Of a stretch of 61,384 nt of DNA, positions 27,236 through 32,505 are shown one piece after another. Source of the stretch: Roseofilum acuticapitatum BLCC-M154. GTDB taxonomy: Bacteria; Cyanobacteriota; Cyanobacteriia; Cyanobacteriales; Desertifilaceae. The stretch covers positions 1-61,384 of the forward strand of contig NZ_JAQOSP010000100.1 of assembly GCF_030068475.1 (NCBI RefSeq), read 5' to 3'. Numbering within the stretch: the stretch's first letter is position 1; every line of letters begins with the position of its first letter. The notes beneath the pieces are model-generated. The model was not told where the DNA came from. It ran no database searches and saw nothing but the letters and a program-made list of their open reading frames with translations. A program made the position numbers and the translations under genes.

Positions 27236-27335
27236 TAGAGACAAGGCCTGTCTTGATCTGTAGGGGCGGGTTTTACCCAAATCTTGTAGACTGACAACTA
27301 TTTTTGTAAACCCGCCCTTCTCCACTCTGTCTCTA
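27236..27335. repeat. 100-nt foldback element (MITE-like)
   Basis: Outer arms TAGAGACA (27236-27243) and TGTCTCTA (27328-27335) are perfect inverted repeats. An inner pair GGGCGGGTTT / AAACCCGCCC (27264-27273 and 27308-27317) nests inside. There is no reading frame. The inner arm has the GTAGGGGCG-type core shared with the palindrome at 25653. The element lies between the truncated cold-shock gene and the left Rpn gene of the 27-32 kb island. Confidence 0.75.
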
Positions 27336-27363
27336 GAGGTAGCATTTTCCCCAAGCGCGATGG

Positions 27364-28224
27364 TTACTGAGCATTATCTGCCAACCAAGACACTAAATCC
27401 TCAACTCCCGTAAAATCGAGCAGCGCTTCCCCTAAATCTTCCAAAGTTTCCACCGACAAAGACTGAATCTGTGCTTCCAATTCTGGAGAGAGCGCACCCA
27501 CTCGTCGCGTCAAGAGGCGAGTGACAAAAGAGATGGCTTCTCTTTTCTGTCCTTGCTGAACTCCTCGCTGAACCCCTTCGAGCAAACCTTCTTCATGAAT
27601 TTCTTGGTAAATCACGGACTCGCGCATCGTCTCTTTCCTCAATAATTGTCTAATTAACTTCTTCTCAAATCTCAAACCCGCCAACACTTGGCTACAAGCA
27701 AGAACATCTGCTTGTTCCTTACTCTCTTCGATTGTAGCAACCCGATCAGCCACTTGCTGGAGTAACTGGCGGGGTTCGCTGGTTTTCGATAAGGTAGCCA
27801 AGGGCAGTAAACCGGGAGAAGAGAGGAGAAAATTGGGATCTTGCTCCCAGAGTCGAATCACTTGGTAGGGATGTCGGGTTCCTCCGTCCTGGTACTTGGA
27901 GACTGAAACTTGCTCTGACACTATTTCTCGTAAGAAAATCACCACTTGATGCACGGAGCCACCATACTGCCGTTTGAGTCTCACGTAGTAGTCGAGCATT
28001 CTAAACGGTAGGGGAGGTTTGGAGTAGGGACGGGTTTCAAACTCGATGTGCAGAATTTGATTCCCCGCTTTTAGGAACGTCAGAGAATCTGCGCGGATGG
28101 GTTCTTGGATCAGTTCGGTTTTGAGGACTTCAATGGGGGTGGGTGGCGCTTGGGGAAGCAACCATTGGATGAAGGACTCTGGGAATTTTTCAGCTAGGTA
28201 TTTGCAAGCGTTGTCGTAGGCCAA
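27364..28224 (-). CDS. Rpn/DUF4351 family PD-(D/E)XK nuclease, copy 1
   Basis: Rpn-like (recombination-promoting nuclease / putative transposase) protein of about 286 aa. The catalytic region reads IRADSLTFLKAGNQILHIEFETRP, with D and E-x-E as in this nuclease fold. It is followed by RMLDYYVRLKRQYG, a helical middle, and a C-terminal DUF4351 domain (LLTRRVGALSPELEAQIQSL). I chose the TTG before AYDNACKYLAEKFPE because the paralogue at 31612 starts exactly there; the frame is open 16 codons further. The two copies are very similar over their whole length and about 35 bases upstream, in the same orientation. Confidence 0.85.
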   Translation of the reverse strand: MAYDNACKYLAEKFPESFIQWLLPQAPPTPIEVLKTELIQEPIRADSLTFLKAGNQILHIEFETRPYSKPPLPFRMLDYYVRLKRQYGGSVHQVVIFLREIVSEQVSVSKYQDGGTRHPYQVIRLWEQDPNFLLSSPGLLPLATLSKTSEPRQLLQQVADRVATIEESKEQADVLACSQVLAGLRFEKKLIRQLLRKETMRESVIYQEIHEEGLLEGVQRGVQQGQKREAISFVTRLLTRRVGALSPELEAQIQSLSVETLEDLGEALLDFTGVEDLVSWLADNAQ

Positions 28225-28283
28225 GGGAGTGAAAAAATAGCATCTTAACTTAAGTTTACAATATTTTCGCAAAATAAATCACT

Positions 28284-28313
28284 TTTTGCTACCTTATGCT
28301 ACCTTTTGCTACT
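28284..28313. repeat. Three tandem 10-bp repeats in a divergent promoter region
   Basis: TTTTGCTACC, TTATGCTACC, TTTTGCTACT, head to tail, one helical turn apart, in the 155-base spacer between the divergent Rpn copy 1 and the GTPase-like gene. The regular phasing suggests binding of an oligomeric regulator (operator or iteron), but no regulator is known. Confidence 0.65.
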
Positions 28314-28379
28314 GACACTTTGAAATTAAGTTGCTAGAGTGGGAATTGTGAAAATTCCATACAAAACAATTGATAAATT

Positions 28380-30764
28380 ATGTCTAATACTTATCAAGAT
28401 TTCCTGAACACGGCCGATCGCAAAAATGATAGCTATATCACTTGTCCATCTTGTGGTTCTCCAATGGGTGTGAGAATTCAAGGCTATCAAATGATTGCTA
28501 CTGATAGTTTTCGATTAGAGCTAAATAACAATATTGCCTCTCTGCGTACTTTTTTGGAAAAGCTGGAATCATTATTAGAACAGAGAAATCAACCTCTCGA
28601 TCCGCTAACAAGGGGATATTATCCTTTTGAACAAGAGAAGAATTTTTATTCTGAAAATTTCAATACTTCTTCACCATCAAAAATACCAGATGATTTTAAT
28701 GAAAATAATGAGATTTATGATGAGGAAGAATATAACAGTGTTGACAACTTGGAAAACAGAGTATTGGGCAATGATGGAAATTATCGTGGGGTCATAGGTA
28801 AAGAAGTTAGTGAAAAGTTTGTTAAAGAGGAATTAGATTTTTTCCAAGATATTGACAAATTTGAAAACTTTCCTCTTAAGGATGAGACTGATGAAGATTT
28901 AATGTATAAAAAGTGTATAATGCTACTGCGTGGGATTGAACCCCGATCTTTAAGTGGCCCTTTAAGTTATTTGATTCTTGATCAAAATAATGTTTTTAGT
29001 TGGCGACAAAATCTTTCCACGCCGGAAGGACAAAAAATTCTAGAAAAACTATTAAATCAAGTATGTCCTACAATTCAATGGTATTTGAATAAGTTACTTG
29101 AATTACATCGCAAGAGAAAAGAAAATGAAAAAATACCCAGAGCTGTCTTAAGAGCGCAATTTCTCCTTGCACTTATGTTAGGACACAAAAGCAAAGATCG
29201 CGATCAATTGAAGAATGAATTTAAGCTGGATCAAGTAGATATTGAAAAAAATGTCCGATATGAATTACCTCGATTAATAGAGATTTCATACAGAAATTTA
29301 TTGAGATTGCTGAATTCTGAAGTTCTTTTAGGAAACTCTAAATTGAAGTTATCAGACGAGTTTAGAAAAGCCATGAAAGTTAGTAAAAATAAAGCAAGTC
29401 GAAATCCCAGTCAGCAAAACGCAGATCCACAGAAAGTTCAAAATCCACTCAATAGTCAGGATACTTATGAAAGCAGAGTTGTCTCTATGACCAAGAAGTG
29501 GGGACAAGAAATTAATAAACTTGTTCATTTCTCTTGCAAAGGATTAGTGGGTAAGAATATGAAGAGATGTGGGTGGTATCCGAAAAACACTAAAACCCAC
29601 TCCATTATCTTGCTAGGTAGTCGCGGTACGGGAAAATCTTCAGTTATGTTAACAGGGTTAGTGGCATTTCGTCGCTATGCTGCTTCTTTAGGGGCAACCG
29701 TTGCATTGGATTTGCCCGAAGATAGAGAGGAGATGCTGAGACTAGAGCAAATGTATCAATCTGGTGAATTTTTTGGTAAAACACAGTTAGGGGATAAAAC
29801 CAGTATAAAATTGTCAGTAAAATTTCCAGAAAATGATCCCTCCAAGAGAATTCATTTTGTCTTTACCGATGTCCCTGGTGAAGTGTTTGAAAGTAGCCTG
29901 ACGGAAGAAGGATCATCATCTTGGGTTTTAAAAGTCTTGAAGAATGCAGAGACTATTGTGTTTTTCTTTGATCTTTTAATGGAATCTGCCATCAGAGATT
30001 TGCTAACGAAAACTCGCAATTTTGAAACTTGGAAATCAGCTTTGGAACAATTTGATAGAGTGAATAAAAGTCGCGAAGGTAAAGCATCGATACCTCAACT
30101 CGATCTTCTCGAACAGTTACTAATTGATTTGCAGCGTGAAAGAGAAGATGTGCAAGGAATAAACTTTATTTGTGTGATTCCAAAATCAGATATGTATGCA
30201 GATCGAGACAATCAAGAGGCAAAATTCTTCAGTGCATTTTATCAAAAACTTGAGGGATATGGATTGCTAACTCAATCTGAATACGATCGGGAAGATAATG
30301 ACTCTTTTGACTCTCTATGTTCTTTAGGTGGCACAGGCTATAAACCAAGAGATACTAGAGAATCAAAGATTATCAAAACTAAGGTAGAAAATCAGGAAAA
30401 GATTGGTAGAATGATGTCTAACTTAGCTCGTGAATGCTTGCTGAATATCAAGAATGCTTTAGGAGAAGAAGCCAATCCTTCATTTAAATCTACGTTGCTG
30501 GATTTGATTCAGTTAAGGTTGATTACAAACTTAGAGAAGACTTTTAGTGAAGAAAAGGTCTATTTTTTACCAACATCTGGACAGGGAAAAGATAACTCTA
30601 AATTACTTGAAGAGAACAAAACCACAGAAAATGGGAATATTTCAACCGGAAGTATTCCTAATCAGAAACTATCTGAATATGTGTTCTTTTTACCTACTGC
30701 TTTGGCGATATTGGGAGAAAATAGTCAATCTTCCGAGGAACCCCAAAGAGTAAAGCAAGGCTAA
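28380..30764 (+). CDS. Large P-loop GTPase-like protein, putative conflict-system NTPase
   Basis: No characterised homologue is recognised. Order of parts: residues 22-28 contain CPSCGSP (half zinc ribbon). An acidic, low-complexity region (about 85-180) is followed by a helical region (about 210-320). A G domain starts near 405: SIILLGSRGTGKSS (Walker A, 413-421), FTDVPGE (G3-like, D497 and G500) and CVIPKSD (G4-like, D604). The last 190 residues are mixed. The pattern resembles the GTPases of NTPase-centred bacterial conflict systems. The coding sequence is visibly A/T-rich compared with neighbours, suggesting transfer. Convergent with the HTH-nuclease-like gene 45 bases away. Confidence 0.75.
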   Translation: MSNTYQDFLNTADRKNDSYITCPSCGSPMGVRIQGYQMIATDSFRLELNNNIASLRTFLEKLESLLEQRNQPLDPLTRGYYPFEQEKNFYSENFNTSSPSKIPDDFNENNEIYDEEEYNSVDNLENRVLGNDGNYRGVIGKEVSEKFVKEELDFFQDIDKFENFPLKDETDEDLMYKKCIMLLRGIEPRSLSGPLSYLILDQNNVFSWRQNLSTPEGQKILEKLLNQVCPTIQWYLNKLLELHRKRKENEKIPRAVLRAQFLLALMLGHKSKDRDQLKNEFKLDQVDIEKNVRYELPRLIEISYRNLLRLLNSEVLLGNSKLKLSDEFRKAMKVSKNKASRNPSQQNADPQKVQNPLNSQDTYESRVVSMTKKWGQEINKLVHFSCKGLVGKNMKRCGWYPKNTKTHSIILLGSRGTGKSSVMLTGLVAFRRYAASLGATVALDLPEDREEMLRLEQMYQSGEFFGKTQLGDKTSIKLSVKFPENDPSKRIHFVFTDVPGEVFESSLTEEGSSSWVLKVLKNAETIVFFFDLLMESAIRDLLTKTRNFETWKSALEQFDRVNKSREGKASIPQLDLLEQLLIDLQREREDVQGINFICVIPKSDMYADRDNQEAKFFSAFYQKLEGYGLLTQSEYDREDNDSFDSLCSLGGTGYKPRDTRESKIIKTKVENQEKIGRMMSNLARECLLNIKNALGEEANPSFKSTLLDLIQLRLITNLEKTFSEEKVYFLPTSGQGKDNSKLLEENKTTENGNISTGSIPNQKLSEYVFFLPTALAILGENSQSSEEPQRVKQG

Positions 30765-30809
30765 ACTTGGATGAATTTTCCTCAAGTTTTGTAACAACGA
30801 ACATCGATC

Positions 30810-31592
30810 TTAGAGTCGATCGTTTTGAATCAAAAGCTCTAGGAATTCTTGGACAACCCGATCGCCCTCTTCGTTGCATTCGTTATAGTCGCAGCAATGG
30901 ATCAGGGAGATGCCATTGGGTTTAAATGGGTTGTCTGTCTCTTCCGTTTTTGCTCTCTTCTCAAGAGACACGACTTCCAGAATGCCCCATTTGCCTTGGT
31001 GGAACACAAGGAAGTGCGCGTCTTTGTTTTCTCTCCCGTCTGATGTGGTGAGGCGTGCTTTGGCATTGGGGAAGAAGAGAACATTGGCGCGATCTAGGGC
31101 TTCAGCTATTTTGAGTTGAGCTTCGCAATCAAAATGCCAACCGTTCCAGAGATACTTGGGAGCTTCTGGATGAGAGTTGGTTTCAGGTGGATGTTCTGGC
31201 AGTAGTTCTGAGTCTAAGGCTTTAGCATGTAAGACAGCTTCACTACTGAGGTTGGCTAGATTTAAGGTTGCTCCACTGAGATTAGCACCCTTGAGGTTAA
31301 CTTCGATTTCCTGGGTGCGATGCAAAGTTATGGCGTTTCGGCGCAAGTATCGCTTAAAGACTGCCTGTAAGTTACTTTTCTTCACCTTTTCGTCGAGAAC
31401 TTCTGAGAGTTGTTTCCACAGTTTGGCAGCGACGGATTTGATATACACATCATCGTAATTGGAAGCTTCGGCGATTTGCGGATAAGAACATCTTCCTTGC
31501 CAACATTGCCGAAAGATGAACTGCTGGACATCGTTGAGTCCTTCTCCATCTAGAAGAGTTTCGGCGATCGCCAGTGCTTCGTCAACAGTCAT
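30810..31592 (-). CDS. vMAP-type HTH, pentapeptide and PD-(D/E)XK-like protein
   Basis: Three-part protein. The N-terminus TVDEALAIAETLLDGEG to about residue 82 resembles the helix-turn-helix domain that begins vWA-MoxR-associated and related cyanobacterial conflict proteins. Next come a few pentapeptide repeats (NLKGANLSGATLNLANLS). The C-terminal 110 residues contain HFLVFHQGKWGILEV and VVQEFLELL, the pattern of a PD-(D/E)XK-like domain common in cyanobacteria, although the usual Asp after LEV is Val here, so activity is uncertain. The frame is open 13 codons further upstream (MGSDYLNVEE), overlapping the Rpn copy 2 stop. Either way it is coupled to that gene. Confidence 0.7.
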   Translation of the reverse strand: MTVDEALAIAETLLDGEGLNDVQQFIFRQCWQGRCSYPQIAEASNYDDVYIKSVAAKLWKQLSEVLDEKVKKSNLQAVFKRYLRRNAITLHRTQEIEVNLKGANLSGATLNLANLSSEAVLHAKALDSELLPEHPPETNSHPEAPKYLWNGWHFDCEAQLKIAEALDRANVLFFPNAKARLTTSDGRENKDAHFLVFHQGKWGILEVVSLEKRAKTEETDNPFKPNGISLIHCCDYNECNEEGDRVVQEFLELLIQNDRL

Positions 31593-31611
31593 CAGTTCCA
31601 CTTCCTCAACA

Positions 31612-32505
31612 TTAAGATAGTCGCTCCCCAAGCCAAGACACTAAATCCTCAACTTCCGTAAAATCGAGCAGCGCTTCCCCCAAATCTTCCAGAGTTTCCA
31701 CCGACAAAGACTGAATCTGGGCTTCCATTTCTGGAGAGAGCGCACCCACTCGTCGCGTCAAGAGACGAATGACTAAAGATGCCTCCCGTTGTACACCTCG
31801 CTGAATTCCTTGTTGAATTCCTCGCTGAATTCCTTGCTGAATTCCTCGCTGAATTCCTTCGAGCAAACCTTCTTCATGAATTTCCTGATAAATTACTGAC
31901 TCGCGCATCGTCTCTTTCCTCAATAGTTGTCTAATTAACTTTTTGTCAAATCTCAAACCCGCCAACACTTGGCTACAAGCAAGAACATCTGCTTGTTCCT
32001 TGCTCTCCTCGATTGTAGCAACCCGATTCGCTACTTGCTGGAGTAGCTGGCGGGGTTCGGTGGTTTTCGATAAGGTAGCCAAGGGCAGTAAACCGGGAGA
32101 CGATAGGAGTAAATTGGGGTCTTGTTCCCAGAGTCGAATCACCTGATAAGGATGTCGGGTTTCTCCGTCCTGGTACTTGGAGAGCAAAACTTGCTCTGAC
32201 ACCATTTCTCGTAAGAAAATGACTACTTGATGAACCGAGCCACCATATTGCCGTTTGAGTCTCACATAGTAGTCGAGCATCCGGAAGGGTAGGGGAGGTT
32301 GGGAGTAGGGACGGGTTTCAAATTCGATATGGAGAATTTGGTTCCCGGCTTTTAGGAACGTCAGAGAATCGGCGCGGATGGGTTCTTGTATCAGTTCGGT
32401 TTTGAGAACTTCAACGGGGGTGGTTGGTGCTTGGGGAAGCAACCATTGGATGAAGGACTCTGGGAATTTTTCGGCTAGGTATTTGCAAGCGTTGTCGTAG
32501 GCCAA
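31612..32505 (-). CDS. Rpn/DUF4351 family PD-(D/E)XK nuclease, copy 2
   Basis: Near-identical paralogue of the gene at 27364, here 297 aa with a TTG start (AYDNACKYLAEKF follows). It has the same catalytic stretch ADSLTFLKAGNQILHIEFET and the same DUF4351 tail. It differs mainly by an in-frame expansion near residue 225, where GIQRGIQQ is repeated two to three times where copy 1 has GVQRGVQQG once. The expansion comes from a 24-bp DNA repeat (31797-31860). The next gene on this strand (HTH/nuclease-like) begins within or just after its end, so it is probably the first gene of a two-gene operon. Confidence 0.87.
   Translation of the reverse strand: MAYDNACKYLAEKFPESFIQWLLPQAPTTPVEVLKTELIQEPIRADSLTFLKAGNQILHIEFETRPYSQPPLPFRMLDYYVRLKRQYGGSVHQVVIFLREMVSEQVLLSKYQDGETRHPYQVIRLWEQDPNLLLSSPGLLPLATLSKTTEPRQLLQQVANRVATIEESKEQADVLACSQVLAGLRFDKKLIRQLLRKETMRESVIYQEIHEEGLLEGIQRGIQQGIQRGIQQGIQRGVQREASLVIRLLTRRVGALSPEMEAQIQSLSVETLEDLGEALLDFTEVEDLVSWLGERLS
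31797..31860. repeat. In-frame 24-bp tandem repeat (GAATTCCTTGTTGAATTCCTCGCT)
   Basis: About two and a half copies of a 24-bp unit, each built from two 12-bp halves of the type GAATTCCTCGCT and GAATTCCTTG(T/C)T. They encode the GIQRGIQQ repeats of Rpn copy 2. Copy 1 has only the unexpanded version, so the array grew after duplication or shrank in the other copy. Confidence 0.8.

Follow-up and report, generated by a model that had tools for sequence, protein, structure and literature searches.

The window analysed here is a stretch of 61,384 nucleotides (nt) from contig NZ_JAQOSP010000100.1 of Roseofilum acuticapitatum BLCC-M154, a cyanobacterium with a 5.2-Mb genome in 154 contigs. It carries an island of four genes: two copies of an Rpn gene (Rpn1 and Rpn2), a gene for a DO-GTPase-like protein, and a gene, called HTHnuc here, for a helix-turn-helix (HTH) protein with a nuclease-like C-terminal domain. 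The order from left to right is RNase Z-like (minus strand), Rpn1 (minus), GTPase (plus), HTHnuc (minus), Rpn2 (minus), and UPF0047 (minus), in which the GTPase gene and HTHnuc are adjacent and convergent. All proteins of the island have clear homologues. The earlier note, made from the sequence alone, had described a conflict-type island bracketed by two almost identical Rpn/DUF4351 genes in the same orientation. The bracket is confirmed (both genes on the minus strand, proteins 91% identical), as are the A/T-rich slot between them (GC of 35.3% vs 47.6% for the HTH-Rpn2 stretch) and the conflict-type character of the parts, namely Rpn and the DO-GTPase-like domain. The features are as follows.

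27364-28224, minus strand: Rpn1 (Rpn/DUF4351) gene with three four-residue repeats; homologous TTG start at 28224, open frame extending to 28272
27364-27627, minus strand: predicted RpnS-like internal antitoxin frame of Rpn1, with ATG at 27627 behind GAGGAAAGAGACG; based on the conserved internal Shine-Dalgarno (SD) sequence and ATG
28225-28379, no strand: divergent intergenic region between Rpn1 and the GTPase gene
28281-28312, minus strand: three iterons of about 10 bp, GTAGCAAAAG type; the only site of this genome within two mismatches of GTRRYAAAAAGTRRYAAAAAGT
28312-28340, plus strand: promoter-like element (CTGACA, 17 nt, TAGAGT) that points towards the GTPase gene, a consensus match only
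28337-30824, no strand: stretch without homology to the same-genus genomes G034 and G057; there the slot is filled by a 336-aa GTPase, an 80-aa open reading frame (ORF), and a vWA protein (aa, amino acids)
28380-30764, plus strand: DO-GTPase-like gene, 794 aa, taken as the exchangeable cassette of this allele
30810-31592, minus strand: HTHnuc, 260 aa, with an HTH, a short pentapeptide stretch, and a nuclease-like fold; open frame extending to 31631
31612-32505, minus strand: Rpn2 (Rpn/DUF4351) gene, just upstream of HTHnuc, with six four-residue repeats
31612-31908, minus strand: predicted RpnS-like internal antitoxin frame of Rpn2, with ATG at 31908

Comparison with related cyanobacteria divides the locus into a constant arm and an exchangeable one. 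The constant part is Rpn followed by HTHnuc, or HTHnuc alone, and in other genera the order is cassette, then Rpn-HTHnuc. Among 42 loci with a full-length HTHnuc, 41 have a divergent gene as the nearest one upstream of HTHnuc (or of Rpn-HTHnuc), counting genes of 100 aa or more. These loci are related and not independent, and their gene calls are our own ORF picks; the baseline is 124 of 337 other gene pairs in the same loci. This count drops the window and L108, L112, and L122 (same genomes as L132, L141, and L148), excludes loci lacking a full-length HTHnuc or an upstream gene, and ignores ORFs shorter than 100 aa. With ORFs of at least 70 aa and duplicates included, 47 of 49 loci are divergent, the exceptions being the window and L138.

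The slot genes of the 42 loci fall into 24 BLAST groups. Their Pfam names include MMR_HSR1 (three sequence groups), VWA_2, SBP_bac_3, Peripla_BP_6, UvrD, KAP_NTPase, ThiF, calpain with RTX repeats, DUF4230, M23, GIY-YIG, and DUF6232; judged by these names some are plausible conflict modules and some appear ordinary. Other MMR_HSR1 GTPases stand divergent from an HTHnuc that has no Rpn (L151:3154-4284 and L168:9157-9750), and GTPases therefore recur in the slot.

That the cassettes are exchanged as blocks, and repeatedly, is seen where the same chromosomal site is compared between genomes. L103 (G244) and L109 (G272) have flanks 98.2% and 95.0% identical and a Rpn-HTHnuc part 93.6% identical, while no alignment exists between their slots, which hold GTPase-85aa-vWA and SBP-PBP genes, respectively; the alignment picks up again some five bases ahead of the first repeat. 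The same block exchange is found at a second site (L130/L135 and L129/L130, flank blocks 78-98% identical). Homology of the window to G034 and G057 likewise stops at 28336 and resumes at 30825, and the slot of these two genomes contains instead genes for a 336-aa GTPase and a 206-aa vWA protein with an 80-aa ORF. A 25-row tree of HTHnuc places the window with G034/G057 as their sister (100/100), and six rows of the eight-row set holding the window are GTPase-vWA. From this position the cassette replaced in the window was probably itself a GTPase. Seven slot labels, one of them the outgroup label, change 12 times on the tree. GC content is lower in the slot than in the constant arm at every one of 9 loci compared, though by a narrow margin in L109.

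The window and G057 differ from other genera in order, having Rpn2-HTHnuc, a converging cassette, and Rpn1. Behind Rpn1, G057 keeps a 49-nt remnant of the HTHnuc start (89.8%, E of 6e-13), which suggests a tandem copy that later lost pieces; there is no such remnant in the window. An ABC-ATPase-like ORF behind Rpn1 in G057 (L075:3999-4727) begins with the remnant.

The intergenic DNA between cassette and constant arm carries direct repeats of about 10 bp. Many relatives have them as (GTGATAAAAA)n, and those of the window are of the GTAGCAAAAG type. AARGT boxes paired at a distance of 10 or 11 bp are found on the sense strand in 31 of 44 regions upstream of HTHnuc or Rpn, compared with 2 of 427 control regions; on the antisense strand they occur in 24 of the 427 controls, as expected of slot genes that share the same DNA. 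L108, L112, L122, L140, L074, L075, and the region before Rpn2 were dropped from the 44 as duplicate, short, or permuted. The exact 22-bp iteron core is matched 24 times, with overlaps, at 17 sites, which are spread over 15 of the 291 genomes of the order (the reversed pattern gives 0). This is a strict measure, by which most HTHnuc-bearing genomes have no core, only variants or none. Fourteen of these sites are at HTHnuc (one split) and one at Rpn alone, so that 15 of 17 are at HTHnuc/Rpn. The window's own genome has a single match within two mismatches of the core, and it lies in the window.

Several further observations concern these repeats. The other two exact cores, L215 (G075:C49:165045) and L224 (G244:C1:497711), are situated one before an FHA-like gene and the other with an exonuclease III-like gene on one side and a 231-aa ORF on the other (names are ours). 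A second or reordered copy of HTHnuc has GCGATCAAAA-type repeats replacing GTGATAAAAA (L129:8148-8963, L131:6895-7710, and upstream of 10001 in L147). In G075 (L020:10081-11038) four AARGT boxes lie between a DO-GTPase gene (plus a 139-aa ORF) and a facing HTH-ATPase-WD40 gene. The idea that iterons precede all HTH-bearing ATPase genes was discarded, as none is found in five cases of the window's own genome, the G075 gene facing the DO-GTPase being the exception. In L019, L021, and L022 the DNA that separates the GTPase from its partner lacks an iteron pair.

In many loci the iterons directly adjoin a promoter-like element that points towards the cassette, with a mean of 7.5 of 12 matches vs 5.1 in base shuffles. 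Sigma-70-like sites show no excess in the island (7 vs 8.8 expected).

The open frame of HTHnuc runs from 30810 to 31631 on the minus strand; its relatives align from Met14, which gives 260 aa from 31592, the length previously proposed. Matches at E<=1e-12 are found in 169 of the 291 genomes, many in the HTH part only or the nuclease part only. Rpn, complete or cut by a contig end, adjoins HTHnuc in 15 of the 29 best-scoring loci, and with wider flanks in 13 of 22. Outside the genus the Rpn beside HTHnuc is 64-69% identical to Rpn2, and HTHnuc homologues below about 56% identity are mostly without Rpn.

In the predicted structure HTHnuc has a putative LuxR/sigma-4-like HTH (residues of about 16-98) and an endonuclease-like C-domain modelled as a PD-(D/E)xK fold. 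Its acidic active site is unconserved: position 206 is D in 21 of 37 sequences (H in the window) and position 219 is E in 26 of 37, the equation of these positions with the PD-(D/E)xK motif being our own reading. The nuclease-like part proposed for this gene is present as a modelled fold that has no conserved active site. A search of solved structures with HTHnuc returns pentapeptide proteins and chance-level matches. The HTH resembles the N-termini of ATPase-type proteins in its own genome. The suggested likeness to vMAP domains is at most a lead, and the VMAP model has no Pfam match in HTHnuc; nor do VMAP-C, MoxR, or vWA in the island proteins, with no search for MoxR made in the genome.

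The two Rpn genes of the window align over two DNA blocks, one of 300 nt (93% identity) and one of 147 nt (95%). Both proteins match DUF4351 (3e-24 and 2.4e-24) and the family model NCBIfam TIGR01784 (53.2 and 52.9 bits, cut-off 52.1). They are each other's only close kin in the genome, the next paralogue being 45% identical. The residues RADS...(I/L)EF(E/Q), which we take to be the acidic residues of a PD-(D/E)xK-type site, are present in every close Rpn relative aligned, and one distant paralogue differs. Inside both window genes lies GAGGAAAGAGACG-ATG, and comparison finds an internal AGGA-type SD with ATG in 24 distinct Rpn genes among 30 rows, including both window copies; the remaining rows are two duplicates, one paralogue without an internal start, and three without the motif. 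The internal SD uses the Arg codon AGG, whose share among codons for Arg is 4% for the window and 7% for loci L127-L142. A palindrome upstream of Rpn1, ACTTAAGT, was examined as an operator and rejected as not conserved: it is seen at Rpn1 of the window, G034, and G057, with a looser form elsewhere in three others.

It is reported that Rpn genes encode a toxic DNase and a C-terminal antitoxin from an internal start, that the number of four-residue repeats affects Rpn pairing, and that with a plasmid Rpn certain phages form fewer plaques (Zhong et al. 2023, PMC10327210). With three repeats in Rpn1 and six in Rpn2, the two genes may form separate toxin-antitoxins that are not interchangeable. 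Tandem Rpn pairs with differing numbers of four-residue repeats also exist in sister genomes (L084:7328-9129 and L087:5823-7258).

The GTPase has the motifs GSRGTGKSS, DVPGE, PKSD, and CPSCGS, in agreement with the earlier note, whose coordinates also hold, and matches Pfam DO-GTPase1 and DO-GTPase2 above the gathering cut-offs (31.9 and 31.7 bits vs 27). A single-sequence search finds relatives in 7 of the 291 genomes, its own included, of which one match runs off its contig and one is a short remnant; a profile search (E<=1e-15) finds them in 3 of the 386 genomes of a phylum sample, again including its own. Four full-length relatives are 42-53% identical to the 794-aa protein. They have the Walker A motif and PKSD (PKID in one) in common, and the Walker-B glutamate is kept as TD(I/V)xGE in 5 of 5 GTPases aligned. 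Four cysteines are invariant, two (C22/C25) close to the N-terminus and two (C386/C397) directly ahead of Walker A. By this conservation the latter pair may be the missing half of what had been described as a half zinc ribbon. A search of solved structures with the GTPase gives no match.

HTHnuc adjoins none of the four full-length relatives. The nearest large genes facing them are NB-ARC-like/WD40 genes in L019 and L020 (NB-ARC read from sequence) and, past short ORFs, DUF1822/CHAT-CHASE2-group genes or a TPR-CHAT gene in L021 and L022. In L021:10488-16377 and L022:10800-18001, DUF1822/sigma-like/CHAT-CHASE2-group genes are divergent from the DO-GTPase (Pfam checked for L021).

With moderate confidence we read the island as one version of a modular conflict locus, with the iterons as the site of HTHnuc action, Rpn as the effector, and an exchangeable cassette. 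The constant arm would consist of the iteron-bearing divergent promoter region, a Rpn toxin gene that probably encloses its own antitoxin, and HTHnuc, and the other arm of a cassette that is transcribed divergently and swapped whole from lineage to lineage. In the window this would be the DO-GTPase-like gene, where two same-genus genomes have GTPase and vWA, in a locus also rearranged around a second Rpn copy. The HTH of HTHnuc would bind the iterons and set the expression of both arms, its nuclease-like domain having lost conserved catalysis and serving binding. The cassette protein, here the GTPase, may sense or time a threat, and the effector step would be the release of the Rpn DNase. Genome comparison shows the architecture, the repeated exchange of cassettes, the conservation of the iterons and of the internal Rpn start, and the unconserved active site of HTHnuc; iteron binding by HTHnuc, the regulation, any coupling of GTPase to Rpn, and an anti-phage role are inferred. 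A larger claim is advanced only tentatively, namely that such loci form an undescribed class with an iteron-operated slot run by an HTH protein with a dead nuclease fold, where unrelated sensor or nucleoside triphosphatase (NTPase) cassettes (DO-GTPase, GTPase with vWA, KAP NTPase, UvrD, solute-binding proteins, and others) each license the same Rpn DNase toxin-antitoxin.

A number of observations weigh against the modular reading. Thirteen of the 44 loci have no iteron pair as defined, two exact cores are at unrelated genes, and in G075 iterons precede a Rpn that has neither an adjacent HTHnuc nor a divergent gene. By eye, tandem Rpn copies in same-genus genomes show no iterons within 200 bp of upstream DNA. 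Taken locus by locus, the promoter-like element reaches significance (p<0.05) in only 11 of 33 cases. Some slot genes look ordinary (M23 peptidase, RTX proteins), and in L147 the immediate neighbour is adenylate-kinase-like with the KAP gene beyond it. The DO-GTPase occupies this locus in the window only, where the cassette is divergent from Rpn1 and not from the Rpn2-HTHnuc pair.

HTHnuc might instead be an ordinary local regulator divergent from its target, with the iterons as its operator, slot genes that have no common role in conflict, and Rpn as a partner limited to one clade. The likeness of its HTH to LuxR-type and sigma-4 DNA-binding domains, the unconserved active site, the very mixed slot genes, and the retention of iterons and a divergent neighbour where Rpn is absent would all suit such a regulator. 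We consider it rather unlikely, however: NTPases recur in the slot (three MMR_HSR1 groups, DO-GTPase, KAP, UvrD), and a regulator does not need the change of target at a fixed site that is seen. The slot genes could also be passengers without functional link, brought by homologous exchange between Rpn copies at a recombination hotspot. Rpn copies are repeated, several same-genus contigs end inside Rpn, exchange breakpoints fall at the edge of the constant arm, and the slots are AT-richer; but neither divergent orientation in 41 of 42 loci nor iterons kept at the junction even in Rpn-less loci is expected of passengers, and this explanation is improbable.

The earlier note grouped the GTPase gene and the HTH gene as one dedicated system. 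The pair is adjacent and convergent in the window, but as a general unit it is rejected: the four full-length GTPase relatives are located elsewhere, matches to HTHnuc occur in 169 of 291 genomes, and the two nearest relatives of the window HTHnuc, in G034 and G057, stand with another cassette. A dedicated two-gene system is thus very improbable, and the grouping retains an evolutionary basis as constant arm and exchangeable cassette, the fixed pair not being conserved. Several contigs of related assemblies end inside Rpn, as would be the case if two Rpn copies had joined unrelated contigs in assembly. Such an artefact is hardly credible, since G057 has HTHnuc, the converging cassette, and Rpn1 in that order on its own single contig, and the two window Rpn copies differ by 5-7% in aligned DNA blocks.

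The locus offers natural experiments, with the same chromosomal site and the same Rpn-HTHnuc carrying different cassettes. It makes testable how a toxin-antitoxin might be coupled to interchangeable partners, the control of Rpn release, and the capacity of a DO-GTPase to work in the absence of GAP1. As a specific cis mark, the iterons can serve to find further loci.

At the margin of the island, the foldback once placed at one side of it does exist (about 27255-27338, between Rpn1 and the RNase Z-like gene). It is a dispersed repeat with 21 other places in this genome among the matches listed, recurs in same-genus genomes, and is ruled out as an island boundary. A viral origin was also discarded, with no relative of the GTPase or HTHnuc found in viral_contigs. 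PHROGs and PADLOC searches give weak matches only.

The components of the locus are of known kinds, and the arrangement of Rpn-HTHnuc with an exchangeable divergent cassette is not found described in the titles and abstracts that our searches of open-licence papers listed. The closest folds considered for HTHnuc are the NGO0050 endonuclease-like protein (3hrl) and the catalytic domain of the homing endonuclease I-Bth0305I (3r3p). HTHnuc differs from both in its unconserved putative catalytic acidic positions and in the fusion of the nuclease-like domain to an HTH; Foldseek gives it no match at E<=0.001. With the Rpn L/S toxin-antitoxin (PMC10327210) the window shares the Rpn family, DUF4351, and an internal SD/ATG before four-residue repeats that differ in number. 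Unlike that system, for which the accessible part of the paper gives no operon partner or cyanobacterial case, the window Rpn is followed by HTHnuc and opposed by an exchangeable cassette.

DO-GTPase/GAP1 systems (Kaur et al. 2020, PMC7159879, as far as its available text goes) have in common with the window the DO-GTPase domain, the Walker-B glutamate, and the N-terminal Cys pair. In contrast to them, the window has one GTPase only, and its genome has no match to GAP1-N2 (PF20013) or GAP1-M (PF20014), GAP1-N1 and GAP1-C not having been searched for; by Pfam none of the four island genes is a GAP1 partner. The same source, in that text, reports GTPase-centric conflict systems as nearly completely absent from cyanobacteria, whereas the DO-GTPase2 domain is found here in 28 of the 386 genomes of the cyanobacterial sample. 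VMAP and other MoxR-vWA ternary systems (PMC7159879, same text) differ from the present locus in that a GTPase and not MoxR stands beside vWA and that HTHnuc has no VMAP model match; they resemble it in joining constant components to variable modules, and in the vWA protein of the sister-species cassette.

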